From assembly GCF_016698645.1 (NCBI RefSeq), contig NZ_CP068047.1, positions 2,019,001 to 2,083,000 on the forward strand: a DNA stretch of 64,000 nt, written 5' to 3'. Under the pieces are notes generated by a model. It was not told the origin of the DNA and ran no database searches. It saw only the letters and a list, made by a program, of their open reading frames with translations. The position numbers and the translations under genes were made by a program. Source of the stretch: Devosia oryziradicis (GTDB lineage: Bacteria > Pseudomonadota > Alphaproteobacteria > Rhizobiales > Devosiaceae). Numbering within the stretch: the first letter of the stretch is position 1; the number at the start of each line of letters is the position of its first letter. Shown in pieces: positions 11,810-27,113 of the stretch.

Positions 11810-13057
11810 TTATGCGATAGGCCCAAGACCATCGGCCTCGGCAGCTGCACGCAGCTCGCTCAAGGTGTACTTTTCGATGCGGTTCTCATTGTAGGCTACG
11901 ATGACGAAGAGCGGCTCCTGCAATTCAGGCACGTTCTCGGGCAGGCTGGCCAGACCGAAGGTTTCGAACGGGCCACCATAAAGTTGGACCATGACTGACA
12001 GCAGCTTACTGTCTTCGGTTTCGGCTTTGGCTGGAGCAATGCAGAAAACATGGACCTCACCGAAATCTGCTGCGCCCGCTAGCTGGTTGGCGGGGTGCTT
12101 CTCGGCGCCGATTTTCAAGATGTTCCCTTCGCCAGTGCGGGCGTAACGTTTCGCTGTCTTGAACTCCGGACGACGCACGAAATCTGCGCCGAACAGGTGG
12201 GCGGCGAGATTAATGCATATCTTGGTCAGCACCCGGTCATGCACTTTAATCGACATCGGGATCTTCAAGTGCACACCCGTATCTTCAACAGTGATTGGGG
12301 TGGCGTCGTCAGGCACAACAATGGCGTCGGGGTTGCGACGCAGAAGCGAGAGAACGCGAGGAGCATCATCCAGTTCGATCACAGCACAGACCAACTGGCC
12401 CTGACTCCGGCGGTAAACGCGCGGCGTCAGCCTAGACGCCGAGTGGGCGGTCTTCGGCATTACCAATTGCTCGACCCACATGATGCCGTCTGTTGTCTTC
12501 GGCGCCTTTGCAGATGTTTGCACCCCAGACGCGACGTATTCCTCCGTCACCGCGTCCCATTTCAGTTCGGTCAGCTCATATGCCGCTTCCAGGCCAGCCT
12601 TGACCTTACGAACAAGAACCAGATCTCTACATAGAACGGCCTTGAAGTCTGAGAGGAAGGATCGGCCGGTCGCGACGTCGGGCAGGTGGGCTGTCAGCGT
12701 GCCTCCATTCTGCAAGATGAGTTGCGGCAGGATCGCGGCCACGAACCCTGGTCCGAGTTCCTGATTCAGGAATACGCCGCTTGCAGGATCGTCCAGAAGG
12801 CTCTGCGCAGCAGTCACGGAGGGGACTCCTGGCTTGCCGCCGCGGCCACGTGTTTTCTCCTGGTGGAACAGGCGGGCAATAGCCACCGGCGAGGAGCGGA
12901 GAAACTTGGCCTCGAGCTTGGAGAAGATCTTGGTGTTACAATCTCCGCAGACGCAGTCCGTGAGCATCCACCTTTTGTCGTCACCGCCTAGCCCAGCGGA
13001 GACCACATGCTCGTCGGTGAAAGGCTTGGCTTCGTCGCAGTAGATGCATTTGTCCAT
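11810..13057 (-). CDS. HNH-type zinc-finger protein, putative nuclease
   Basis: 415 aa from ATG at 13057, with GAGGGAC upstream. The N-terminus has CIYC at residues 4-7, EHVVSAGLGG and CGDCNTKIFSKLEAKF, the Cys4-zinc HNH pattern in which EHVV holds the catalytic His. The remaining 350 residues are not recognised. It is the leftmost cargo gene, pointing towards the left transposon end. HNH proteins of this kind occur in restriction and other defence loci; nuclease activity is inferred. Confidence 0.65.
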   Translation of the reverse strand: MDKCIYCDEAKPFTDEHVVSAGLGGDDKRWMLTDCVCGDCNTKIFSKLEAKFLRSSPVAIARLFHQEKTRGRGGKPGVPSVTAAQSLLDDPASGVFLNQELGPGFVAAILPQLILQNGGTLTAHLPDVATGRSFLSDFKAVLCRDLVLVRKVKAGLEAAYELTELKWDAVTEEYVASGVQTSAKAPKTTDGIMWVEQLVMPKTAHSASRLTPRVYRRSQGQLVCAVIELDDAPRVLSLLRRNPDAIVVPDDATPITVEDTGVHLKIPMSIKVHDRVLTKICINLAAHLFGADFVRRPEFKTAKRYARTGEGNILKIGAEKHPANQLAGAADFGEVHVFCIAPAKAETEDSKLLSVMVQLYGGPFETFGLASLPENVPELQEPLFVIVAYNENRIEKYTLSELRAAAEADGLGPIA

Positions 13058-13422
13058 GGGCGTCCCTCTAAACGGGATAATGGAGGAAGGAGCCTTGCCC
13101 GGCAATCGCCGGAAAATACCCTTCAGTCTTTCGGTCGTTCTTGCCAACGGTGAACCGGAAGTTCTGTAAGCGACTAGGCGACTGAACCCTATGTCTACCC
13201 CTCATGATTTTCTTCGTATCCATTGAACGCGCCCCCGAACTCATCGACCCCTCCTGGAAAGAAGCCATGCCGAAGAACAGTCGTCCGCTGCAGTAGCCAT
13301 AGGGGCCCGCAGATTGAAAGGCTCCGGCCTATTCAGTTTTGCGTCGCAGCAAGCTATGATCTTTCCGTGTTGGGAGCATGTCGTGGGCGATCTAATCCAC
13401 GATGTTGGGGCGGTGACTTATT
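13058..13422. other. Intergenic region between the divergent HNH and methyltransferase genes
   Basis: 365 bp expected to hold promoters for both directions. I see no RNA gene, strong hairpin or recognised operator. Confidence 0.5.
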
Positions 13423-14562
13423 TTGACCGGTGCGAAACTGAAAGTGGCCGACCTGTTCGCCGGCGCCGGCGGTTTTTCGCTCGCTGCAGTGCAGGCGGGA
13501 TGCGATATCGTCTTCGCCGTCGAGTTCGACAAGAACGCTGCCACGACCTACAGGAAAAACATCGGAGCCGAGGCGCGTAGCAGGAACGTGGTCGTCTACA
13601 ACGAGGACATTACGTCGTTGAGCGCCACCAGCTTGGCCAGGAAGCACTTCCCCGATGCCGACTGCGACCTGCTGCTCGGCGGTCCGCCCTGCCAAGGCTT
13701 CTCCACACACAGGATCAATGGCGCTGGCGTAGACGATCCGCGCAACGCCCTGATCCACGAATACTTCGATTTCGTCCGCAGTTTGAAGCCAAAGGCGTTC
13801 CTCATGGAGAACGTCCCCGGCATGTTGTGGCCACGCCACAAGAGCTATCTCGACGAGTTCTATCGCCAGGCGCATGACAGCGGATACACCGTTTACGCGC
13901 CTCAAAAGCTCGACGCCCGGGACTACGGCATTCCCCAGCGGCGCCAGCGGGTCTTCATCCTGGGCGTCCGCGAAGACATCGCGATAGATGAATTCGAATG
14001 GCCGCCCAAGCCGACCCATTCCGCCGTCGAGCTGACCCAGGGAACCGGCTTGAAGCCTTGGGTTTCCTGCGAAAGCGCCTTCGCCGATTTGCCCGAGGAC
14101 GACATCAACGGGGTGCACATGAACCACGGGCCGGAACTCGTCGCTGCATTTGCCCGAACGCCGCCGAACGGAGGCAGCCGCAAGGATTCCGGGCGCGTGC
14201 TCGACTGCCACCTCGAACACGACGGTCACAGCGACGTCTATGGCCGCATCGACCCGAGCAAGCCGGCGCCGACCATGACCACCGCGTGCATCAATCCCTC
14301 CAAGGGGCGCTTCGTTCATCCCGTGCTCAACCATGGAATTACCGCACGGCAGGCCGCGCGGATCCAGACCTTCCCCGACGACTACGTGTTCGATGGCGGC
14401 CTGATGGCGGCAGGAAAGCAAATCGGAAACGCCGTGCCGGTGGCGTTCGGCCAGAGCCTGATCCAGCACATCAAGCAGCTGCTCGACCGGGATGTCGTTA
14501 GAGGTAAGCCTGCCGCCAGCACGGCCTCGTCGGTCAAGTTCGTAGAGCTGGCCGACGCATGA
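13423..14562 (+). CDS. DNA (cytosine-5) methyltransferase
   Basis: 379 aa from a TTG start, the first possible start after an in-frame stop at 13414. All core m5C motifs are in order: VADLFAGAGGFSLA (SAM binding), GGPPCQGFS with catalytic C90, FLMENVPGML, GIPQRRQRVFILG, then a recognition region and QIGNAVPVAFGQ. It methylates cytosine C5 in a specific DNA sequence, unknown here. It overlaps the next gene by 4 nt, so methylase, GHKL ATPase and receiver form one operon. No classical restriction endonuclease follows directly. Confidence 0.92.
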   Translation: MTGAKLKVADLFAGAGGFSLAAVQAGCDIVFAVEFDKNAATTYRKNIGAEARSRNVVVYNEDITSLSATSLARKHFPDADCDLLLGGPPCQGFSTHRINGAGVDDPRNALIHEYFDFVRSLKPKAFLMENVPGMLWPRHKSYLDEFYRQAHDSGYTVYAPQKLDARDYGIPQRRQRVFILGVREDIAIDEFEWPPKPTHSAVELTQGTGLKPWVSCESAFADLPEDDINGVHMNHGPELVAAFARTPPNGGSRKDSGRVLDCHLEHDGHSDVYGRIDPSKPAPTMTTACINPSKGRFVHPVLNHGITARQAARIQTFPDDYVFDGGLMAAGKQIGNAVPVAFGQSLIQHIKQLLDRDVVRGKPAASTASSVKFVELADA

Positions 14563-17534
14563 GGACAGTCAGCTTCAAGACACGGGCGCGCACCGTTGAC
14601 CATCTCGGGCGCGAACAGATCGCGGACGTGCCTACTGCCATTTCCGAACTCTGGAAGAACGCCTACGATGCCTATGCTCGATCGGTGTCGCTAACGATCT
14701 TCGATGGGGCGCCGCTGGTCGTGACCATCGCCGACGACGGCCATGGGATGAATGTCGACGAACTGATTGATCGTTGGCTTGTCGTCGGCACGGAGTCCAA
14801 GCTCTTCGGCGATGCTCGTTCGGACGACGACCGCGATGGATTGGAGCCGAGGACGCGCCAAGGCCAGAAGGGCATCGGGCGCCTGTCGTCGGCGCACCTG
14901 GGCCCCCTGATGCTGCTGGTCACCAAACGTCGCCAGCAAAGGATGGCCGCCGCCCTTATCGATTGGCGGCTCTTCGAGAACCCGTTCCTGATCCTGACCG
15001 ACATAGAGATACCGGTCATCGAGTTCGAAGATCGTTCCGAGATCGCCGATTTCCTGCCGCTGATGGCCGAGGCTCTACTGGAGAATGTTCTGGGCGCGGG
15101 CAGGGAGGACGAGCGATCCTCCCGGATGATCGACGCCTGGGCCAGGTACGATCTCGCTGCGGCGGCCGAACGGGGCAGCGCCGACAAGACCGTTCCGTCG
15201 CAATCCATCGTGTCTGCGTGCCGATCCTTCGTTCTGACCGACGACCACATGGCTCCCTGGGGCGTGTGGTCCGGGGCCAGCGAGAAAGGGACCGTCATGG
15301 TGGTGTCCGGTGCCAGCGACGAGTTCACGGCATTGCTGCCAGCCAATAGTCAGCTGGCCACGGCGAAGGACGACAAGGCCCGGTTCGAGACGACATTGGG
15401 AAGCTTCGTCGATCCGCTCTTCGATGCGGCTCGACCCGAGGTCAACGCGGCCAATCCAGATTTTCAATACGGCGTCTTCGTCTCCTCGAACGGTATATCG
15501 AGCAAAGTAATCGGCTCGGCTGCGGAGTTCAATCGGTCTCTGACGGACCGCATGGAGCACATCGTCGATGGCCGCATCGACGAGAAGGGCGTGTTCCGTG
15601 GCCAGATCAAGTCGTTCGGCAAGTGGCGCAAGGTCGGCAGCGAATACGAGATCAGGCCGCCCAAGGAGTTCACCCTCCCCACGGGGCCGGGTTCCGCTCT
15701 TGGACCTGTCGACGTCTACTTCGCGACCTTCGAGCAGGTCGCGGCCAGTTCCACCCATTCGCCAATGGAGTTCGAATTCCTCAAGACCAATTCGGCCCCT
15801 CATGCCGGCCTAATGATCTATCGCAACGGCCTGCGGGTGCTGCCTTATGGTCGCGAGGACAACGACTTCTTCGAGATTGAGAAGCGCCGCAGCAACCATG
15901 CCGGCCGGGAGTATTGGAATGCCCGAAGGATATTCGGGCGCATCGCGATCAGCAGGGAGAACAATCCCAATCTGAAGGACAAGGCGGGCCGAGAAGGCTT
16001 CATCGTTAACAAGGCCGCCAAGTCGCTCAAGATTCTGATCATCAACATCCTCAAGTCATCGGCCTACGACTACTTCGGAACCAACGCCGATGACCGGAAA
16101 TCGGAACTGGCCGAGGCCGAGCGCAACTTCGCCGAGTTCAAGGCCAAGGAGGCGCAGACCAAGCTGCGACAGAAGCAGCGCACGCAATTCAGGAAGAACC
16201 TGAAAGCCCGGACCGCCAGCATTCCCACCGTAAGGGAACGGCTGCGTGCCGATATCGCGGCAACGCGGATCGAGGTCGCAGACGACATTCCGGTCGCCCA
16301 GGAACGGCTCGAGGCGGCCCAGGCCAGCGTGGCCGATCTGCGCCTGCCCGGTGCGCCATCTCCGCTCGGCACCCTCGAGGAGGACTACCGGTCCTATCGC
16401 CGGTCGATGACCGACCTGAACCAAATGGTCGCGGATTTCTCGACCACCATCGCCGATGCGGTGGAACGGATTCATCCACCGTCGCCCGAAGATATCGTGC
16501 TCAAGCAGATCCAGCGCAACGAGGGGCAGCTCACCTCGCGGGTGACGCGCTGGTCCAAGGAGATCCGCGTGCTGCAGGACGCTGAACGCGTTCGCATCGG
16601 CGACCTCGTGACCGAGCGTAACAAGCTCCTGCGCGAGGAGACCATGCCACTCGTCGAGCAGACCGCCAGTGGTAGGATGTCGTTGACGGCCGCTTCCCGC
16701 GCGGTCGTGGAGGCCAAAAGCAAGATCGATGCTGAGAACGAGCTGCTGTTCCAGAACTACATTCTGGCGCTCGAAAACCTCAAGGACAGCATCGACATTC
16801 AGGCGATCGCCATCTTGGGCGGCGACGAGAACAGCGAGCTCCGCAGCACGGTTGATCGCCTGAACGGTCTCGCCCAGTTGGGTATCACGGTCGAATTCCT
16901 CGACCACGAGCTCCATTCCCACGATGCCGTCATCGACGACGGCATCCAGCGGCTGAAGAAGAAGCTGGGCAAGGACAAGGACCTCGACCAGCTCGCCACC
17001 GGGTATGCAGGCCTTAAGCAGATCCTCGATTTTCTAGGGCCATTGCGGATGGCCGGCCGGCCGCAGCCTCGGGACATCGGCGGCGACTACATCCATCAAT
17101 ACGTGTCGGAATTCTTCGGCCGCACCATGGCGGCCAGCGGCATCGAACTCGTGGCCACGCCAGCATTCAGACGCTTTAGCGTCTTCGACCAGCCATCGCG
17201 CCTGCTCCCGGTCTTCGTGAACCTCGTGAACAACAGCATCTACTGGCTGATCAATGCGCGAGTGGAGGATCCGAAGATCGTGTTCGACGTCCGTGGAGAC
17301 GAGGTCTTCGTGGCCGACAACGGTCCTGGCGTCGAGGAGATGGACTTGAAGCGATTGTTCTCCTTGTTCTTCACCAGGAAAATCGAGGGTGGACGAGGCG
17401 TGGGGCTCTATCTGTCCCAGGCCAATCTGGCCGCTGGCGGCCACACGATCAGTTATGTGCAGGACGACGACAGGAAGATCTTGTCCGGCGCGAACTTCTC
17501 GATGAAGTTCCGGGGGGCGAATATCAATGACTGA
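14559..17534 (+). CDS. Large protein with two GHKL ATPase domains (MORC/MutL-like N-terminal, histidine-kinase-like C-terminal)
   Basis: 991 aa. N-terminal GHKL domain: E30 and N34 in AISELWKNAYDAYA, D60-G61-H62-G63 (IADDGHGM), GTESK and GQKGIGRLSS at about 100-110, as in MORC/Hsp90/MutL-like ATPases. Residues about 510-600 are charged and probably coiled coil. Near residue 784 lies GITVEFLDHELHSHD, resembling a kinase phospho-acceptor His box. A second GHKL domain at about 888-975 has all kinase boxes: NLVNNSIYW, VADNGPGV, LFSLFFTRK and GGRGVGLYLS. It overlaps the methylase by 4 nt and the receiver gene by 8 nt. MORC-like ATPases are known in restriction-modification contexts; kinase activity is inferred. 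Confidence 0.85.
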   Translation: MRTVSFKTRARTVDHLGREQIADVPTAISELWKNAYDAYARSVSLTIFDGAPLVVTIADDGHGMNVDELIDRWLVVGTESKLFGDARSDDDRDGLEPRTRQGQKGIGRLSSAHLGPLMLLVTKRRQQRMAAALIDWRLFENPFLILTDIEIPVIEFEDRSEIADFLPLMAEALLENVLGAGREDERSSRMIDAWARYDLAAAAERGSADKTVPSQSIVSACRSFVLTDDHMAPWGVWSGASEKGTVMVVSGASDEFTALLPANSQLATAKDDKARFETTLGSFVDPLFDAARPEVNAANPDFQYGVFVSSNGISSKVIGSAAEFNRSLTDRMEHIVDGRIDEKGVFRGQIKSFGKWRKVGSEYEIRPPKEFTLPTGPGSALGPVDVYFATFEQVAASSTHSPMEFEFLKTNSAPHAGLMIYRNGLRVLPYGREDNDFFEIEKRRSNHAGREYWNARRIFGRIAISRENNPNLKDKAGREGFIVNKAAKSLKILIINILKSSAYDYFGTNADDRKSELAEAERNFAEFKAKEAQTKLRQKQRTQFRKNLKARTASIPTVRERLRADIAATRIEVADDIPVAQERLEAAQASVADLRLPGAPSPLGTLEEDYRSYRRSMTDLNQMVADFSTTIADAVERIHPPSPEDIVLKQIQRNEGQLTSRVTRWSKEIRVLQDAERVRIGDLVTERNKLLREETMPLVEQTASGRMSLTAASRAVVEAKSKIDAENELLFQNYILALENLKDSIDIQAIAILGGDENSELRSTVDRLNGLAQLGITVEFLDHELHSHDAVIDDGIQRLKKKLGKDKDLDQLATGYAGLKQILDFLGPLRMAGRPQPRDIGGDYIHQYVSEFFGRTMAASGIELVATPAFRRFSVFDQPSRLLPVFVNLVNNSIYWLINARVEDPKIVFDVRGDEVFVADNGPGVEEMDLKRLFSLFFTRKIEGGRGVGLYLSQANLAAGGHTISYVQDDDRKILSGANFSMKFRGANIND

Positions 17535-19338
17535 GCTGGCAGTGGCAGGGGAGCCCAAGCCGACGTTTTCAGATCTGGTCAAGCAGGCCTTCATCGACCC
17601 GATCAGGTCGGTGCTGATCATCGACGACCAGTATCCGACCTGGGAGCAGATCTTTGGCGACGTGGGCTACGATTCCACCGACAAGACGCTTTGGACGCCC
17701 AAGGGCGATATCCTCAAGGTGATAAAGCAGTTCCGGAATATTTCTCCGGCACTGACGGTGGACATCCACGACGGCAAGCACAACGAGGGGATCGGCAGCT
17801 ACCTGCACCAGTCCGACTTGCTGGTGCTCGATTATCAGCTCGAGAAGAACGAAACCAATGGCGCCCGGGCAGCGCAGATCATCGCCGATCTGCTGAACAA
17901 CAACCACTTCAATCTGGTGATGGTCCATACCGCGATCGGCGATCTCGTCGATCCCTTCAACACCATTTTGATGTCGCTTCTGACACCGCTGAACATCGTC
18001 GACGCTCGCGCGGACGCCGGTTTCGCCTTGATCGAAGCCTTGGAGGACACTGGCGACCCGCGCTTCTCCAATGTTTTCAAGAAACTGCAGGACGCTCTCA
18101 GCGCGACGGCCTACGTTGCGCTCCAAGGCTTCGTCCGCAATGGCGGCAAGATGAACGAGTACATGAAGTCCGGGGCCGAGTTCGCCAAATTCCGAGAAAT
18201 CGCGGACGAAGCCGGTTGGGACGTTGGTGAGCGTCTCAAGGTCATGGAATGGGGGATGTCGAAGCACGACAAGAAGGTCGCCTCCTACAAGTCTTCGCCC
18301 AGGGATCTTCGCTGGAACATTCCTGGGAACCGGCGCAAGCCCTGGATCCGCACCAATGGGGGCTTCATCGCCTTCGCTAAGAAGAAGAACACAGATCTGC
18401 TGGACCGCCTGCAAGCCGCGATCGAGGATTGGCGTCCTTCCCCGTCGAGGCTCATGTCCTCCCGCATTCGCGCCGAGATCAGTAAGCAGGGCGCTGGGGC
18501 CGAGGATAATGCCCTCAGCGACAAGCATGCCTACTGGCAATACTATCAGGAGCTGCGCGGCACGCCGTTGGACACCTCGCCCGACGCGCACAGGAATAGG
18601 CGGAAGACCCTGCTGGAGAGCCATGCTGCGCGTCATACCGAGAGGTTGCTCGACCTGATTGGCAAGAAGGCGGTCGCATTCGGCCTCAAGGTGCTGGAAG
18701 CAGACCCCACCGAGTCCAACGCCAAGCTTGCAGGGTTCTCGAAGAACTACGCCCTCGGGTCGATCGCGAAAGCAGAGCGCGACAAGGCGCGGTCCCACTA
18801 CAACGCCCACATATCCACCAAACAGCTCTCGGGTTGGCACCTGCATCCCGGACATGTCATGAAGATCGGTCAAGAGAAGTGGGTGTGCTTGTCGCCGTCT
18901 TGCGACCTAGTGCCGATGCAGAAGACGTCAATCGCGGTCAGGGATTCCAGTTCGGCATCGGTGAAGCCGTTCATGGCGGTCAAGCTTACCAAGGTCGAAA
19001 GCTACACGGCTTCCGAAGTGAACTCGAACACGCTGATCTTCCTCAAGGAGGCCGGGGTTATCAACACGTATACGGTATATCCACGGGGCGGCGAGTTCGG
19101 CTCTCCGATCTGGCGGCTCTTCATGGCCGATGACTACGGCAAGTTCGAGATCGAGGACGACCTGACGGCCAAGCTTCGGTTGAGCTACCTGTCCGGCAAA
19201 GGCAAGCAGATGCAGGTAGAAGAGATCGAGGCTCGATTGATCGGTCAGTTGCGCTACGAGTACGCATTGAACCTGATCCAGAAGCTGGGGGTCGAATTCA
19301 CCAGGATCGGTTTGGATTTTTCAGCACCGGCCGGTTGA
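17527..19338 (+). CDS. Receiver-domain protein with a long unknown C-terminal region
   Basis: 603 aa. Residues about 27-140 look like a response-regulator receiver: acidic pair D33-D34 in VLIIDDQ, probable phospho-acceptor D102 in LLVLDYQL, and a Thr switch in VMVHT (T135). The remaining 460 residues are unrecognised; they include WVCLSPSCDLVP at about 451-462 and no DNA-binding domain I can name. The 8 nt overlap with the GHKL/His-box gene suggests a His-Asp pair in one operon. That would be unusual for a methylase operon and is an inference. Confidence 0.75.
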   Translation: MTELAVAGEPKPTFSDLVKQAFIDPIRSVLIIDDQYPTWEQIFGDVGYDSTDKTLWTPKGDILKVIKQFRNISPALTVDIHDGKHNEGIGSYLHQSDLLVLDYQLEKNETNGARAAQIIADLLNNNHFNLVMVHTAIGDLVDPFNTILMSLLTPLNIVDARADAGFALIEALEDTGDPRFSNVFKKLQDALSATAYVALQGFVRNGGKMNEYMKSGAEFAKFREIADEAGWDVGERLKVMEWGMSKHDKKVASYKSSPRDLRWNIPGNRRKPWIRTNGGFIAFAKKKNTDLLDRLQAAIEDWRPSPSRLMSSRIRAEISKQGAGAEDNALSDKHAYWQYYQELRGTPLDTSPDAHRNRRKTLLESHAARHTERLLDLIGKKAVAFGLKVLEADPTESNAKLAGFSKNYALGSIAKAERDKARSHYNAHISTKQLSGWHLHPGHVMKIGQEKWVCLSPSCDLVPMQKTSIAVRDSSSASVKPFMAVKLTKVESYTASEVNSNTLIFLKEAGVINTYTVYPRGGEFGSPIWRLFMADDYGKFEIEDDLTAKLRLSYLSGKGKQMQVEEIEARLIGQLRYEYALNLIQKLGVEFTRIGLDFSAPAG

Positions 19339-19371: not shown

Positions 19372-20181
19372 TCACTTATCGGTCCGCGCCTTGACGCGGA
19401 TCAGGTAGACGCTGACCGCCGCGGCGGTCGTGACGACTAACTCGGCCTCCTCGAAAGCAGGGTCCCGTCCTTCGAGGATATGGCGGCCTTGCTCGGACGC
19501 GAAGCCCCAGAGCTTTCGGACGGCTTCGTCCATCGGCTTGGGCAGCGGCAGCCGGCTTATGATTGAGCCGAGGGTCCCGCTCGTTCCTTCGTACCCCCGC
19601 GCCACGCATTCGAGAGCGGCCATGGCGTGCTGGATGGCCCCGGTGACATCTGGCTCAGGGCGCCGGGAGATATCGATCAGGGCCTGATGCATCTCGTTGG
19701 ATGCGGTCGGCGCACCTGCGGCCCGCATCATGTCCGGTGCCGTGGCAGTGGCCAGCTCGAACGCCTCGGACCCCCGGACAAGGATCTGGCCTTTCTCCAT
19801 CTTCCAGCCGATACCGTGCTCGCAGAACGCGGCGTTCAACTGCTCCTCATACTGACGCGGCTTGTCGCCATAGCTGTCTCGCTGTTGAAGGGATTGATAC
19901 AGCCGTTCGGCAAGGTCGTAGATGCGGAACCATGGCGCGTCGTCGACCAGGCCATGAACCTCTCGTTCCACCGGTTCTTCCGACCAATTGTTGCTGTCCG
20001 GCCGGCGCAGCATGACGGCGCAGACGATATCTCGCATGCCTTTGGGGCTGAAGCCCAACGAATAGCCCAGCATCAAGATCGCGTCCCGAATTGCAGGCGG
20101 GGCATCTTCACGGACCGTGATCTCGGCATCCGGCGCGCGAAAGCCGAAACGATGGGAGAAGGTCGAATCCGACGTCGTCAT
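19372..20181 (-). CDS. AbiJ-like abortive-infection protein (HEPN-type C-terminus)
   Basis: 269 aa from ATG at 20181 (MTTSDSTFSHRFGF). The N-terminal FSHRFGF...LRNAI-like region resembles AbiJ N-terminal domains. The C-terminus (HAMAALECVARG, KLWGFASEQGRHILEGRDP, EEAELVVTTAAA) matches the AbiJ/STM4504-type HEPN domain of phage-defence proteins, many of which cleave RNA. I cannot point to a secure catalytic R-x4-6-H motif. It converges on the receiver gene and is divergent from the nuclease-like gene. Confidence 0.7.
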   Translation of the reverse strand: MTTSDSTFSHRFGFRAPDAEITVREDAPPAIRDAILMLGYSLGFSPKGMRDIVCAVMLRRPDSNNWSEEPVEREVHGLVDDAPWFRIYDLAERLYQSLQQRDSYGDKPRQYEEQLNAAFCEHGIGWKMEKGQILVRGSEAFELATATAPDMMRAAGAPTASNEMHQALIDISRRPEPDVTGAIQHAMAALECVARGYEGTSGTLGSIISRLPLPKPMDEAVRKLWGFASEQGRHILEGRDPAFEEAELVVTTAAAVSVYLIRVKARTDK

Positions 20182-20391
20182 GGTGCGATAAGTCCAACGT
20201 TGGTGCCGAGATGGCCAAGTTGGAGGATTATGGCCCAGTCCGTGCCTGCCCGAAACCCCGGTCCTGTCGGCAGAGGTAAAGATCACTTGCGATCCAAAAC
20301 AAGATCTCGAAGATTAGCTGCGGCGCAACTTTCTGCACCAGTCCACCCTCAAACATTCTGATAAGCTGCAACCATGGTAGCAGGGCACAGC

Positions 20392-21990
20392 ATGGACCAA
20401 CGGGCAGACCAGCATCAAGCCGTTGAGCGACCAAACGGTATAGCCGAGCATCTCGAGCAGCTGCGCGCGCCCATCATCAAGTCCAATGGCCTGACCGATA
20501 CCGAACGGCACCTTGCCGCGCTGGCCGAGAACACCTTCCTCAACCTCTGGTCCTACCCCAACCCGTATCGCGAACAGCGGATCAATGGCTCCGACAAAGG
20601 CGACGGCAAGGAACTGTGCGACCTGCTTGTGATCTGCGATCCGCACGTCCTGATATTCAGCGAGAAGAACATCAAGTGGCAGGACAAGCCGATAGAGATC
20701 GCATGGCCCCGCTGGTACAGAAGTGCGATCGACGATGCATCCAAGCAACTGCGTGGTGCCGAACGGTGGATAGATAGTTTTCCGGCGAAGATCTTCGTCG
20801 ACAAGGCCTGCACCGTCCCCCTGCCTCTGCCATTTCCGCCCTTGGAACGGCGCCGGGTCCATCGCATCGTTGTCGCCAATGGAGCTGCAGCGGCCTGCAG
20901 ATCCTTCTTCAATGGTGGAACTGGTAGCCTGGTGATCATGCCCGCGCTGAAGGGGCAAGATCACACCGACATGGCCGAAGGCAATATCGGGACAGTGCCG
21001 TTCGCCATTGGCGACATAGATCCGGATCGGGACTTCGTCCATGTTCTCGACGAGGCCACCCTCGGCGTGGTTCTGGGCGAATTGGACACCATCACCGACC
21101 TGACAGGATACCTGGACAGGCGGGCCGACTTCATACGATCGGGCAACCTCGCACTGGCCCATGGCGAAGAGGATCTCCTCGCCTACTACTCCGTCAGAGC
21201 CGACAGCGAGGGCCAACATCATTTTTCTCCACCCGGCAAAGGCACTTGGGCCTTCCATGGACCCCTGCGACTGGACGGATCCCACTACGCGGGCTTGATC
21301 AACGACCCCAGATATCTCGCCAAGAAGAAAGCCGATAAGGTCTCGTATGTCTGGGACGCCTTGATAGAGCAGTTCACAGGGCATCTGCTGGACGGAACGT
21401 CGTTGGTCCCACCTGGTCAGGACTATTCCTTGAGCCGAAGCGAACAGGCGTTCAGGGCGATGGCCCAGGAGCCTCGCGTCGCTCGCAGGAACCTCGGCAA
21501 TGCCTTTCTAGACGCCTGCCGCAGAGGAATGAACCGACAAATCTTCTTTCGCGTGGTCGTTTCTCCAATGGAGCACCCGGTAGGAACTGCCTACTTCTTC
21601 ATGACCATAAAGTTCGAGGAGGGCATGTTTCGAGAGGGTTATGAGCAGTATCGGATCGTACGATCAGGATATCTGGAGCTCTACGCCAAGGCCGTGCTGA
21701 TGCGAAATCCGGGCCTGACCAAGATCATCGGCATCGGTCGCGAACCACCAGGCCAGGGTCGAGGCGTTTCCGAGGACTGCATCTATGCCGAACAGGACGA
21801 ATGGTCCGACGAGGAGAGGGCCGAAATTGAATTCCGTTGCGGCGAGGTCGGCATAATGCAGTCACTGACGGGCCGCACATACCATGTCGACGAGTACCCG
21901 AAGACCGGAAAACGTCCGCAACCGGCCTATTCGGGCTTCAACCGCGCCGAGCGACGGCGCATGGCGGCTGCACTGAAAAAAGGCCGATAG
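20392..21990 (+). CDS. Putative PD-(D/E)xK-type nuclease, function unknown
   Basis: 532 aa from ATG at 20392, chosen for AGCAGGG upstream; an in-frame ATG at 20374 lacks such a signal. The N-terminus has NGLTDTERHLAALAENTFLN and then GDGKELCDLLVICDPHVLI with FSEKNIKW, resembling the Asp/Glu-Lys core of PD-(D/E)xK nucleases in proteins with ELCDLLV...FSDK patterns. The rest is unrecognised and ends in a basic tail (NRAERRRMAAALKKGR). It lies between the AbiJ-like gene and the SOS umuDC operon. Confidence 0.55.
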   Translation: MDQRADQHQAVERPNGIAEHLEQLRAPIIKSNGLTDTERHLAALAENTFLNLWSYPNPYREQRINGSDKGDGKELCDLLVICDPHVLIFSEKNIKWQDKPIEIAWPRWYRSAIDDASKQLRGAERWIDSFPAKIFVDKACTVPLPLPFPPLERRRVHRIVVANGAAAACRSFFNGGTGSLVIMPALKGQDHTDMAEGNIGTVPFAIGDIDPDRDFVHVLDEATLGVVLGELDTITDLTGYLDRRADFIRSGNLALAHGEEDLLAYYSVRADSEGQHHFSPPGKGTWAFHGPLRLDGSHYAGLINDPRYLAKKKADKVSYVWDALIEQFTGHLLDGTSLVPPGQDYSLSRSEQAFRAMAQEPRVARRNLGNAFLDACRRGMNRQIFFRVVVSPMEHPVGTAYFFMTIKFEEGMFREGYEQYRIVRSGYLELYAKAVLMRNPGLTKIIGIGREPPGQGRGVSEDCIYAEQDEWSDEERAEIEFRCGEVGIMQSLTGRTYHVDEYPKTGKRPQPAYSGFNRAERRRMAAALKKGR

Positions 21991-22032
21991 GGCAGGTCTG
22001 TAAGAGGGATTTCTTTCAAGAATACGAACATC

Positions 22033-22047
22033 GTTCTTGTTTTGTTC
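22033..22047 (+). promoter_or_regulatory. LexA (SOS) box upstream of umuDC
   Basis: GTTCTTGTTTTGTTC is a perfect GTTC-N7-GTTC, the LexA operator of alphaproteobacteria. It lies 44 nt before the umuD start, where it would overlap the promoter, and predicts damage-inducible umuDC. Confidence 0.85.
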
Positions 22048-22091
22048 AGTCCGATCCGGGATGCTTTCAGCGAGAGCACTCAGGAGACGGA

Positions 22092-22547
22092 ATGCTGGTC
22101 GACCAAATTGCCATGGAGCCCGGCGGCATGCCGGTGCCAATCACCTCCCTGGTCGAGTTTCAGATCCGATTCGTCGGGCAGCAGGTGCATGCTGGTTTCC
22201 CGTCCCCGGCCGACGACTTCATCGAGACGTCTGTCGACCTCAACCAGGTCCTGATCCAGAACTCGACCGCGACCTTCCTGTGGCGCGTGGCCGGCGACTG
22301 CATGATCGACTGCAAGATCTTCCCAGGCGATGTGGTGATCGTCGATCGCTCCCTGGTTCCGCGCCATCGCTCGATCGTGCTGGCCATCATCGACAATGCG
22401 CCAACCCTGAAGCGGGTGAAGCGCATGGGCAGCCGCATGGTGCTCCATAACGAGAATGCCACGCTGCCGGCCTTCACGGTGACCGAAGGGACGGACGTGT
22501 CGATCTGGGGCGTGGTCACGGCGACCATCCGCGACCTGAGCAAATGA
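22092..22547 (+). CDS. umuD: UmuD-like S24 protein with Cys in place of the catalytic Ser
   Basis: 151 aa from ATG at 22092, with AGGAGACGG upstream. The self-cleavage region [11 protein letters not shown] (A34-G35) matches UmuD. The usual nucleophile motif GDSM is here GDCMID, with C70 (TGC) in place of Ser; the general-base Lys is probably K107 in TLKRVKR. UmuD is cleaved on RecA filaments to UmuD', which activates UmuC for translesion synthesis. Whether Cys70 supports cleavage is open. It overlaps umuC by 4 nt and is preceded by a LexA box. Confidence 0.88.
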
Positions 22548-23809
22548 CCGCGTTCGCCCTGAGCGACGGCAACAGCTTCTATTGCTCCTGCGAACGCGTG
22601 TTCGATCCCAAGCTCGAGAAGCGACCTGTCATCGTGCTGAGCAACAACGACGGCTGCGCCGTTGCGCGCACCAGCGAAGCCAAGGCCCTTGGCATCAAGA
22701 TGGGCCAGCCCTACTTCCAGATCAAAGACCTGTGCCGGCAGGAGGGCGTCGTCGCCCTGTCGAGCAACTATGCTCTTTATGGCGACATGAGCCGGCGCAT
22801 GAACGTGGTCTACAACCGGTTCTCGCCCGAAACCGAGGTCTATTCGATCGACGAGACCTTCCTCGACGTCGAGCATGTGCCGCGCAAGGACAGGACCGCC
22901 TGGGCGAGCGAGCTGCGGGCCACCACGTGCCAGTGGACCGGCATCCCGACCTGCGTGGGCATCGGCCCCACCAAGACCCTCGCCAAGCTGGCCAACAAGG
23001 CCGCAAAGACCCTGGCCACTGGTGTTCTGGACCTGACCGATCCAGACGAGCAGGCTCGGGTGATGGCCGACTTCCCGATCGGCGACGTCTGGGGCATCGG
23101 GCGTGCCAACCAGGCCAAACTCCTGGCCCTGGACATCCAGTTCGCCGGCCAGCTGCGCGACATGGAGCCCAAGAAGGCGCGTGGCATCATGACAGTGGTG
23201 GGGGAGAAGATCGTCCACGAGCTCAATGGCAGGTCCTGCATGGACCTCGAGTCGGTGGCGCCGCAGCGCCAGGGCTGCGCCGTGACCCGATCGTTCGGCC
23301 AGCGCGTGACCTCACGCATCGAGATGGAGCAGGCGGTTGCCGGTTATGCCACTCGACTGGGCGAGAAGCTCCGGCGTCATGGCCTGGCCACGGACTACGT
23401 CACCGTGTTCATGCACACCAGCCCGTTCAACGACGACGAGCCGCAGCGCAATGTCAGCATGACCGTCGATATCCCCGAGGCCACCAACGACACGATGCAG
23501 CTGATCAAGGCGGCCCGGCGCGCCGTCGAGGGGCTCTGGAAATCCGGCTACCGGTACTCCAAGGCCGGCATCGTCACCCAGGACCTGGTCCCGCCCGGAT
23601 TGGCGCAGCGGTCGCTGTTCGATGGTCTCGACCACGACCGGGCCGCCAAGGTCATGGCCGCCATGGATGAAGCCAACCGGCGCTGGGGACGGGCCACCGT
23701 GGTGCCTGCGGCAGTTGGCATTGCCAGCCGGTCGCCGTTCACCACCAAGTTCGAGATGCGGTCGCCGCGGTACACGACACGGTGGGACGAACTGCCGGTG
23801 TGTCGGTGA
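22544..23809 (+). CDS. umuC: UmuC-like Y-family DNA polymerase (Pol V catalytic subunit)
   Basis: 421 aa, full UmuC length. Catalytic motifs are [20 protein letters not shown] (metal-binding D8) and [11 protein letters not shown] (D-E pair). The helix-hairpin-helix region [15 protein letters not shown] and the UmuC-type C-terminus ([20 protein letters not shown]) are present. It copies past DNA lesions, with mutation, during SOS. It is translationally coupled to umuD on the transposon. Confidence 0.93.
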
Positions 23810-24172: not shown

Positions 24173-24721
24173 TCAGCACCAGAACTCCTCCCCATCGGGC
24201 CAGCGACGTGCCAGGCCTTCTTCGATGAGGATATCGCCGACATCCCGGCCCCCGATCAAGATGGTCGCCAATGTGCGATCGTAGCGATCCTTCCCCGAGC
24301 TTTGGACCACGAATGAGTTTGCGTTCAGCAGTTGCAGCAACCGGGAGCTGGCACGTTTCGCCAACGCCACCTCAGCGGCGCCCCCGCATATGTCGTCGTA
24401 TGGTTCCGGGGTGTCATAGCTCTGCAGACGCAGATTCACGCCATCGAGCCAGACCGTGTCGCCGTCGACCACACAGGTGTAGCGATCCTGACCGCACATG
24501 CCGATGTTCACGCGCCGTCCCTCGTCCGCTCTCTGGGTCGTGACGATTGCACCTGCGCTGTCGGTCCCATGCAGGAACTGATCGGATGCCACCCAGCCCA
24601 AGACGCCCACGGCGATTACGGCTGCGGCGGCCAATAACGGCGTGACGATGTCTCGCTGCGCTCTCGCCGAAGAACTGTGTCTGCTGGGACGTCGTTTGGG
24701 ATTGAAACGGTGAACTGCCAT
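24173..24721 (-). CDS. Membrane-anchored thermonuclease-like (SNase) protein
   Basis: 182 aa. A basic N-terminus precedes one transmembrane helix (LLAAAAVIAVGVLGWVA, about 29-45), placing the rest outside the cytoplasm. The SNase core follows: CVVDGDTVWLDGVNLRLQSYDTPEP and DRYDRTLATILIGGRDVGDILIEEGLAR, typical of the thermonuclease family that degrades DNA/RNA with calcium. The C-terminus (WPDGEEFWC) is normal. It is divergent from the GmrSD-like gene. Confidence 0.85.
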   Translation of the reverse strand: MAVHRFNPKRRPSRHSSSARAQRDIVTPLLAAAAVIAVGVLGWVASDQFLHGTDSAGAIVTTQRADEGRRVNIGMCGQDRYTCVVDGDTVWLDGVNLRLQSYDTPEPYDDICGGAAEVALAKRASSRLLQLLNANSFVVQSSGKDRYDRTLATILIGGRDVGDILIEEGLARRWPDGEEFWC

Positions 24722-24977
24722 GACCCAAGTCTATGCCATCACGGCGACCTACGGAAAAGGCCCGACCACTGAGATGGCCGGGCAAGAACGACCAACGGGG
24801 CCGCATGCCCGATGTTGCAACTGCAGACCAAGGCATGGAAGTCAGCATTTGGCCAGGATGGGATGGCCAGAGCCTAGATCGCATCAAAGGCGCAAGAGGA
24901 CTCAGCAACGGATACTTCCTTGCTCGTCAGCAGCTTATCGGCGAACATCAGTCTGCTGCTTCGGCACTGGGGGAACA

Positions 24978-27113
24978 ATGAAGCCTTACACTCGCTCCAT
25001 CATCGAGCTATTCGATGGCAAGAAGAGGTTCCTTATCCCTCTCTACCAGCGGCAATACGCTTGGAAGGCCCAGCCTCAGCTAGAACTGCTCTGGGAGGAC
25101 ATCGATCGATCAGTCCAGCGGCTAGAGCAGGATCGCTCGTCGCTGACGCCTCACTTCATGGGCGCCATCGTCATTGCCCAAGTCAAGACTTTCGGCAAGC
25201 AGGTCCAGGCATACGAGATCATCGACGGGCAGCAGCGTCTCACGACATTCCAGCTCCTCCTTGCCGCGATACGTGATGTCGCCAAGGCGAATGGATCAAG
25301 GTACGAGGCCGAGCTGCAGAAGTATCTCCTCAACGACGGCGTAATGGAGAACCAAGAGGTCGAGCGCTTCAAGCTCTGGCCATCACTGAACGACCGACGG
25401 TCCTTCATCAGCATCATCGATCCACATGTTGACCCCCATGTACTGGGACCCAAGCCGGTTGATGAAGAGGGAATCATAAGGCGCTCGGTCGCGGCGCATG
25501 CCTATTTCAAGGAAAAGATCGCTGCCCACGTCGATGATAATGGCAGCTTCGATGAGCACCGGCTCGAGCTCCTCTTTGAAGCGTTGAAGGATGGGCTCGC
25601 AATCGTGTCCATCGAGCTGGAAGGTGGTGACGATCCCCAGACAATCTTTGAGACCCTGAACAGCCGCGGCGTGGATCTGACGCCGGGCGATCTGATGCGC
25701 AATTTCATATTCCAGCGCGCAAAGGGTCTCGGCCAAGCTGACCATTCATTGCTGGTCGACAAGCTATACGAGAAGCACTGGCTGCCGCTTGATCGTGCCT
25801 TCTGGGGCCAGCCCGCATCGCGTGGCCGTCAGTCTCGCCAGAGATTGGACTGGATGTTGACCGATCATCTGTCGATGCATATCGGCAATCTGGTCTCGGT
25901 GGAGAACCTGTTCGACAGTTACCGGCGTTGGATACTCAATTCCCGCCCCTTCCCGCATGTCACCGCCGAGCTGGAGTCTATCTCCGCCACGGCGGCGATT
26001 GAGAAACGGCTGTTCGACCAAGACCCCAAGGATCCTATTGGCAACTTTGGCCGCTTTGCCGATGCATTTGACGTCTCTACAGCTATGCCCCTGGTCCTCT
26101 ATCTTGCGACCGAGGACACCGTGGGTGCCGATATCGACAGAGCGCTTGCTGTGCTCGAGAGCTACATATTGCGACGTGATATTTGTGGCTCACCCACGAA
26201 GAACTACAACCGCTTCTTCATTGGCATCATCGACCGGCTTCGTGCGGCTGAAGGCAACAAGATCGACGCGCTGGTTCTCTATCTGTCGAGCCGGCAGTCC
26301 GATCTTGATCGTTGGCCAGACGACGTTGAATGGCAGCGTTCCTGGCTGGGGCGCAACCAGTACAAGGGCGCCCGGCAACCACGGCTACGCTACATATTCG
26401 AGGCCATCGAACTCGCCAAAAGAACGGCGCTCAACGAAGACATCGAGATCAAGTCGGCGCTTTCGATTGAGCACATCATGCCTCAGAAATGGCGGACGAA
26501 TTGGCCGATTCCCGGCTTCGACCATCTTGATGATGATACCGATCCAGAGCATGTCGCTCGAAAGGTCGAGCGGGACGGCGTGATCGACAACCTGGGTAAC
26601 CTCACCCTGCTCACCGGGCCACTTAATACCTCCGTATCAAACGGACCTTACTCGACGAAAATGCCGGCGGTGCGCGCCCATTCGAGCCTTGCACTGAACC
26701 GTGACCTGATCGAGTACGATCATTGGAACGAGGAGACAATTTCAGCCCGAGGGCTGGATCTCTTCGGGATTGCCAAGAAGATATGGGTTGCTCCGACCAG
26801 GGGAGTGGACCAGTCCGCGCTCAACGATCTTGCCGGCGACGGCGTCAAACTCCCTCCAGACGGAACGGAGTGCAAGTTCACCTATGCGGGTGTGGACTAC
26901 GCTGGGACCATCGAGGAAGGTCATTTGGTGGTGGACGGGGTAGATCGACCGTTCGCGACGTTCTCTGGCGCTTCGAAAACGATCACCCGAACGAACCGCA
27001 ACGGCTGGAACGACTGGTATCTCCGCGACCAGATGGGTGGCTGGATACTGGCAGATGACTGGCGCCAGCAAGCGGCTGATGTGCCCGTTTTGGAGAGCCT
27101 GGATGAAGATTGA
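24978..27113 (+). CDS. GmrSD-like restriction protein (DUF262 + DUF1524 HNH) with a RAMA-like C-terminal domain
   Basis: 711 aa from ATG at 24978, with GGGGGAAC upstream; a longer frame to 24720 lacks conserved sequence. The DUF262 NTP-using domain is shown by IPLYQRQYAWK and IIDGQQRLTTFQLL (D83). DUF1524 carries the HNH motif SIEHIMPQKW (H499). These are the GmrS and GmrD halves of modification-dependent (type IV) restriction, fused here. At about residues 620-690, GTECKFTYAGVDYAGTI then TRTNRNGWNDWYLRD resembles a RAMA domain, thought to read DNA modification. It overlaps the next gene by 11 nt. Confidence 0.85.
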   Translation: MKPYTRSIIELFDGKKRFLIPLYQRQYAWKAQPQLELLWEDIDRSVQRLEQDRSSLTPHFMGAIVIAQVKTFGKQVQAYEIIDGQQRLTTFQLLLAAIRDVAKANGSRYEAELQKYLLNDGVMENQEVERFKLWPSLNDRRSFISIIDPHVDPHVLGPKPVDEEGIIRRSVAAHAYFKEKIAAHVDDNGSFDEHRLELLFEALKDGLAIVSIELEGGDDPQTIFETLNSRGVDLTPGDLMRNFIFQRAKGLGQADHSLLVDKLYEKHWLPLDRAFWGQPASRGRQSRQRLDWMLTDHLSMHIGNLVSVENLFDSYRRWILNSRPFPHVTAELESISATAAIEKRLFDQDPKDPIGNFGRFADAFDVSTAMPLVLYLATEDTVGADIDRALAVLESYILRRDICGSPTKNYNRFFIGIIDRLRAAEGNKIDALVLYLSSRQSDLDRWPDDVEWQRSWLGRNQYKGARQPRLRYIFEAIELAKRTALNEDIEIKSALSIEHIMPQKWRTNWPIPGFDHLDDDTDPEHVARKVERDGVIDNLGNLTLLTGPLNTSVSNGPYSTKMPAVRAHSSLALNRDLIEYDHWNEETISARGLDLFGIAKKIWVAPTRGVDQSALNDLAGDGVKLPPDGTECKFTYAGVDYAGTIEEGHLVVDGVDRPFATFSGASKTITRTNRNGWNDWYLRDQMGGWILADDWRQQAADVPVLESLDED

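Follow-up and report, generated by a model that had tools for sequence, protein, structure and literature searches.

Genes and domains of the trio

The window, that is, the whole stretch of 64,000 nucleotides of Devosia oryziradicis DNA that was analysed, contains three overlapping genes on the plus strand, to which all coordinates of the trio refer. They encode a C5-cytosine DNA methyltransferase of 379 aa (13423..14562; PF00145, 5e-64), a MORC-type ATPase fused to a histidine kinase, of 991 aa (14559..17534), and a receiver-effector protein of 603 aa (17527..19338). The ORF coordinates confirm the trio as an earlier reading, made from the sequence only, had described it, and the overlaps in the ORF list amount to 4 and 8 bases. 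For a promoter upstream of the trio and for terminators, no signal above that of shuffled sequences was obtained.

The context of the trio is that of a defence island. An HNH_5-like protein, just below its Pfam cut-off, is encoded 275 bases upstream on the minus strand (11810-13147), and domain and PADLOC scans have revealed an AbiJ_NTD4/PDC-S32-like protein (19372-20286, minus strand) and a GmrSD-type restriction protein (24720-27113). A staphylococcal-nuclease-like protein is also found within 24173-27113, and near the trio two ORFs (21837-23809) resemble, by eye, a UmuD/UmuC-type error-prone polymerase pair.

In the 991-aa protein, the Pfam matches to HATPase_c_3, HEF_HK and HATPase_c are all above the gathering scores, HEF_HK narrowly so (25.0 vs 24.1 bits). 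The MORC/GHKL plus S5-like ATPase module spans residues 15-514 (14601..16100), and its ATPase motifs are intact, with E30, N34, D59, G61, G63, G102, G105, G107 and K475 invariant. The catalytic ATP-binding domain of the kinase (residues 835-988, 17061..17522) keeps N888, N892, D920, G922, G945, G947 and G949 in 73/73 trios. In a structure search with the AlphaFold2 model (pLDDT 79.9, pTM 0.59), the N-terminus matches the MORC3 fold and the C-terminal kinase part the ThkA/HK853 folds. Together with the Pfam matches and the invariant motif residues, these folds bear out both the MORC-like ATPase and the complete histidine-kinase ATPase domain of the sequence-only reading. Its His acceptor, placed at H784, needs a correction: an invariant histidine is indeed present in all 73 trios, but it is H783 (16905-16907), while residue 784 is E in 65 and D in 8 of them. 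H783 belongs to the HEF_HK dimerisation/phosphoacceptor helices (PF19191; 16875..17045), and its helix is a low-confidence stretch of the model.

Residues 11-135 resemble the BbrUII/HgiDII restriction enzymes, matching NF050001 at 66.2 bits, below the 550-bit cut-off. In PADLOC, the kinase protein matches only one model, that of a type II restriction enzyme, and the receiver protein matches none. Except for this N-terminal ATPase part matching restriction-enzyme models, no nuclease family was found in the kinase and the receiver by Pfam, NCBIfam and PADLOC.

The 603-aa protein matches PF19192 at 55.6 bits, and its whole AlphaFold2 model has a pLDDT of 87.6. Its receiver domain covers residues 25-304 (17599..18438), with a helical insertion at about 159-253. 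Across the 73 trios, D33, D34, D102 and K286 are invariant and T135 is at 99%; D102, already proposed as the phospho-Asp, is encoded at 17830-17832. When the whole model was aligned to structures by VIA-align, receiver folds were ranked, and this ranking and the PF19192 match support the receiver fold claimed before. In Foldseek against the PDB, no match reached E <= 0.001; receiver domains led the list (best E 0.02), interspersed with unrelated chains, and a structure search against viral proteins gave no significant match. That the C-terminus has no fold match does not argue for a new fold, because the whole model was searched, not the C-terminal part alone.

That the C-terminus may be the effector had been suggested before, with a length of 460 aa; a conserved C-terminal part does exist, but it comprises about 300 aa (residues 305-603, 18439..19335). 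Judging from the predicted secondary structure and conservation, this putative effector consists of helices, a beta-rich domain with GH..W.CLSP.CDLVP and a terminal helix LRYEYAL..RIGL, and G442, C459, D460, Y579, R593 and G595 are kept at 99-100% in the 73 trios. When 59 of the 73 C-terminal regions were scanned against Pfam, NCBIfam and PADLOC, just scattered weak matches appeared, most commonly zf_CopZ (6/59 members, best E 0.014). With the C-terminal profile, the best match of a PDB sequence search was not under E 0.9, while a protein search returned 72 matches. Three matches that were inspected (P0246, P0247, P0249) are receiver proteins in shortened form, and a further Pfam domain occurs only in P0300, P0301 and P0304. 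P0301 and P0304 are short DNA_methylase-domain proteins with a weak match to the receiver C-terminus, perhaps fusions of a receiver end with a downstream methylase. In addition, close homologues mostly keep H438, H443, C454 and C459; a metal site at residues 438-460 (18838-18906) is conceivable.

Linkage, distribution and earlier description

Scanning species genomes with the kinase alignment, we have kept 80 of 110 relatives, which together with the window give 81 loci. The receiver gene lies beside the kinase in 80 of them and a C5 methylase is adjacent in 73, standing upstream in 62 loci, downstream in 7 and downstream but convergent in 4, as expected if the trio is kept together elsewhere. 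The other eight comprise one locus cut by a contig end and seven without an adjacent methylase. Among these seven, one (L033) has a methylase with the recognition core described below just upstream, missed since the kinase frame ran stop to stop; another (L082) has such a methylase 926 bases upstream, and a third (L032) starts at the kinase. A second set of 19 further genomes, retrieved through PF19192 only (4 + 10 + 5 new), contains the kinase in 19/19 and a C5 methylase in 18/19 of the fetched stretches, and the one miss starts at a contig edge. In one further locus (L173, genome G348) all three frames of the trio are split, so that the locus is either decayed or poorly sequenced.

The distribution is sparse. 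In random genomes, with the window's own genome counted each time, the receiver family is present in 8/297 of the order, 5/385 of the class and 11/398 of the phylum, and in 0/6 other same-genus genomes listed. Matches to at least 80% of the kinase are found in 3 of 72,556 plasmid records and 0 of 50,697 phage records. A Vsr-like cluster lies at most 6 kb away in 32/80 loci, the window not among them. Of the 156 nearest neighbour genes, 148 were scanned, yielding Vsr 25 times, HNH_2 6, Mrr_cat 4 and MvaI_BcnI 2.

The sequence-only reading had called the system undescribed, which is refuted by a paper of 2021 (Bellieny-Rabelo et al., PMC8011034). PF19191 (HEF_HK) and PF19192 (Response_reg_2) both originate from it, and the part of its text drawn on here reports their linkage as 91.6% in 644 regions, frequent C5 methylases upstream of the pair, and Vsr and type II restriction domains in the vicinity. 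The same text gives the architecture HATPase_c_3+HEF_HK+HATPase_c for 174 of 222 proteins, notes the paraMORC kinship of HEF_HK proteins, and places the receiver domain in proteins without further known domains. Our literature search has found no account closer to the trio and no experiment on its function.

Recognition core of the methylase and exchange of partners

The nearest solved structure to the window methylase by sequence is M.HaeIII. In C5 methylases, the segment between the catalytic motifs picks the DNA site and is usually the least conserved part. In the trios, the target-recognition core is the most conserved segment of the methylase. It spans residues 247-299 (14161..14319) in the window, where it reads GGSR..CH..DVYGR..PTMTTACINPSKGRFVH in the comparison of trio and control methylases. 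All 73 trio methylases, from the window and 72 further loci, contain NPSKGR[FY].HP, and 67 have the full core GGSR..CH..DVYGR..PT.T..C.NPSKGRF.HP; this locus set was drawn by means of two peptide patterns taken from a single kinase clade. By comparison, the core is present in 0/27 control C5 methylases encoded in genomes of the class, which were taken by their top PF00145 scores and not drawn at random (30 loci, 28 past the motif filter, one of them the window's own methylase), and in 0/4 other C5 methylases within the trio loci. NPSKGR is likewise missing from the two loci that the filter removed (L088 and L110).

Five trios (L021, L026, L034, L055, L078) bear a second methylase lineage. Between the two lineages, and with one methylase fragment included, the catalytic part is 34% identical on average and the core 53%, vs 29% and 14%, respectively, between trio methylases and controls. 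On a 74-row kinase tree the second lineage (6 rows) corresponds to 3 changes, L140 included, all forced by well-supported branches; L140 itself has a very long branch and its placement is unsure. If a single DNA site is what the kinase pair relies on, replacement of the methylase with the core kept is to be expected. The core might instead serve the binding of the kinase, not the choice of DNA.

One fixed target for all such systems was considered and rejected, as the PF19192-only loci show three core classes. Their 18 readable methylases divide into NPSK (8), SxSN (6) and DxTR (4), so that 10/18 are not NPSK; five of the contigs equal contigs of the earlier set in length, four of the eight NPSK among them, and L110 and L172 are one locus. 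Mapped on a tree of 44 of the 88 kinases (all 10 of the other classes and a hand-picked 34 of the 78 NPSK), the core class needs 4 changes vs 9.6 for shuffled labels, and 0/200 shufflings are as low. Such clustering would also result if the operon were simply inherited by common descent. The NPSK-bearing L140 adjoins two SxSN kinases on the tree, and two SxSN loci (L200, L202) are near NPSK kinases. The core thus appears mostly fixed within clades and switching now and then, as a co-evolving specificity would, which is not proof. In a window scan of the same 44 kinases, no kinase segment tracks the switches of core class, and pairwise distances between kinase or receiver regions and the recognition domain give weak partial correlations (at most 0.17, for the middle region of the kinase).

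As to the site itself, M.HgiDII is reported to mark GTCGAC, a site that M.BbrUII is said to share (in the parts of PMC5867850 and PMC5005818 drawn on). Among 11 loci of BbrUII-like enzymes we have found 4 C5 methylases, 3 of them with the related core GFGNGRFGH. GTCGAC as the target of the trio is not supported, the core of the GTCGAC-type enzymes being related but different. The recognition domain of the window belongs to the same broad family, probably with a different site, because the GTCGAC-type methylases have a GFGN segment where the window has NPSK.

Furthermore, we have scanned viral contigs for the NPSKGR segment, which gave 44 loci, or 43 without L130, whose recognition region is of another kind. 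As the loci were selected for their core, they show the exchange of partners, not the frequency of the core. The partner is a MORC-restriction-enzyme-like protein (BbrUII/HgiDII-like) in 15/43 (one as a fragment only), an ABC-type ATPase in 12 and a HEF_HK-type kinase in 7, with the receiver seen in 5 of these; the remaining 9 have no assigned partner, 6 of them being at the end of the stored DNA. Against NF050001, five of the MORC-type partners score 249-326 bits, four of them nearly full length and all below the 550-bit cut-off. Two ABC-type partners that were checked resemble the defence ATPases of HEC-04, AriA and PtuA type. One of the nine loci without an assigned partner (L156:7356-11623) encodes an 898-aa GHKL-kinase (MORC-kinase) beside an NPSKGRF methylase; the additional N-terminal region of this kinase resembles two of four HNH-type proteins encoded next to other trios (best E 9e-9).

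The same locus, L156, also codes for a divergent receiver-like protein of 524 aa that has no Pfam match. In phage PhiR44_1 (L127, PV340563.1), an annotated ParaMORC3 adjoins a Dcm-type methylase with the core IGYGNGRFGHP. Helicase-like genes (UvrD-type, by eye) lie beside core-bearing methylases in L128, L132, L139 and L153, two of which also carry an ABC-type ATPase, reminiscent of Gabija-like pairs.

Proposed mechanism and comparison with known systems

Since the recognition core is conserved and partners are exchanged with MORC restriction enzymes, a coupling of DNA methylation and the His-Asp relay, as first suggested from the sequence, gains support. The computations give directly the architecture, the invariant residues, the gene linkage, the core within the clade and the exchange of partners. 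Further to these, we infer the sensing of a site, the phosphotransfer, the act of the effector and a benefit in defence or to the host. A restriction sensor with a signalling output is the simplest reading, because kinase and receiver stand where related GHKL proteins carry a nuclease.

Specifically, we give an even chance to the proposal that the trio performs a methylation-licensed surveillance and is built like a MORC-type restriction enzyme in which a His-Asp relay has taken the place of the nuclease. The methylase would mark one specific site in the cell's own DNA, and the MORC ATPase half would close on DNA with the unmarked site, such as that of an invading phage or plasmid. ATP-driven dimerisation could then join the kinase halves, so that H783 would be phosphorylated and hand the phosphate to D102. 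The last ~300 aa of the receiver protein may then act as an effector on the invading DNA or the host. With somewhat less confidence, we propose that the kinase reports the unmethylated site and that the same methyl mark is a self-password shared by kinase plus receiver, MORC-nuclease and ABC-type ATPase modules, which replace one another on mobile elements.

The surveillance proposal is favoured by the linkage of the trio and the core conserved across methylase lineages, by the MORC3 fold, the BbrUII/HgiDII likeness and the BbrUII-like proteins beside methylases of the same core, and by the phage protection reported for VcSduA (PMC12137116, in the part drawn on), the defence-island context and the rarity. 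On the other hand, it is weakened by the absence of a nuclease or toxin family from the receiver C-terminus in the scans above, and the kinase scan and the weak correlations single out no site reader. The core is not universal, as the other classes among the PF19192-only methylases show, and it may serve kinase binding; the H783 helix is modelled at low confidence. Moreover, Vsr-, HNH- and Mrr-type nucleases are often nearby and could be the real effectors.

The authors of 2021 lean, in the text drawn on, to a regulatory role, and speculate that the pair controls restriction systems or senses NTP (PMC8011034). Accordingly, the trio could be a cytoplasmic two-component regulator, whose receiver controls the transcription of methylase or stress genes by methylation state or nucleotide level. 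Kinase and receiver are both complete, the pair is free of nuclease families in our scans, and Pectobacterium homologues are activated in potato tubers (PMC8011034), all of which agree with it. We nevertheless consider it rather improbable, as Pfam and C-terminal profile scans have found no DNA-binding output family in the receiver protein, MORC restriction-enzyme-like proteins exchange as partners of the same kind of methylase, and the distribution is rare and island-like.

Less plausible still is a plain type II restriction-modification system with the nuclease hidden in the receiver C-terminus, where the relay merely licenses cutting. The adjoining methylase and the six nearly invariant C-terminal residues would suit it, but no ExK, HNH or GIY pattern is seen by eye among the conserved residues, and the Pfam, NCBIfam, PADLOC and PDB sequence searches give no convincing match. 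A role of the trio as alarm or regulator, with restriction left to separate neighbouring nucleases (Vsr, HNH_2, Mrr, HNH_5), is very unlikely: the neighbour counts and the HNH_5-like gene on the other strand of the window speak for it, but no one family is constant in these counts, and Vsr can be explained without restriction because it repairs deaminated 5-methylcytosine (PMC8011034).

If the surveillance proposal is true, a restriction enzyme would have been turned into a signalling switch, in which unmethylated DNA causes a graded, reversible phosphorelay, not an immediate cut. DNA self/non-self recognition would gain a programmable output, and the bacterial MORC ATPases, kin of eukaryotic chromatin proteins, a sensor role. 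The conserved core makes the link of methyl mark, sensor and exchangeable effector testable.

Among known systems, Detocs uses a histidine kinase and receiver proteins in phage defence. By its general description, it shares kinase and receiver with the trio and differs in its ATP-cleaving effector, and it is not known to involve a methylase. The BbrUII/HgiDII enzymes (GTCGAC) have a related N-terminal ATPase (residues 11-135) and, by eye, a related methylase core, whereas the window protein scores 66 bits vs the cut-off of 550, has NPSK instead of GFGN and shows no nuclease part. The MORC/paraMORC proteins of restriction-modification operons, as presented in the part of PMC2292703 drawn on, likewise combine GHKL and S5-type ATPases with cytosine methylases and Vsr, share the MORC3 fold, and have been proposed to loop DNA; unlike them, the window has kinase domains and a receiver, not a nuclease or helicase. 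Shedu with a GHKL N-terminus, represented by the GHKL-nuclease paraMORC3 VcSduA, shares the GHKL ATPase, which is predicted to form a clamp-like dimer and is needed, together with a nuclease residue, for protection against phages (PMC12137116). There the nuclease is in cis, without kinase or receiver, and the part of the paper drawn on mentions no methylase, whereas the trio encodes all three.

The closest relatives are the HEF_HK/Response_reg_2 systems, of which the window locus shares the group 1 architecture, the domains, the upstream C5 methylase and the paraMORC kinship (PMC8011034). The trio is therefore of a known kind. The methylase core, the exchange of partners with restriction enzymes and the receiver C-terminus, which are not analysed in the part of that paper drawn on, are examined here. 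What is new is that H783, D102 and the checked ATPase motif residues are invariant in 73 trios, that the recognition core outdoes the catalytic half in conservation even after replacement of the methylase, that methylases with the NPSK core stand beside different partners in viral contigs, and that other kinase clades bear related yet different methylase cores.
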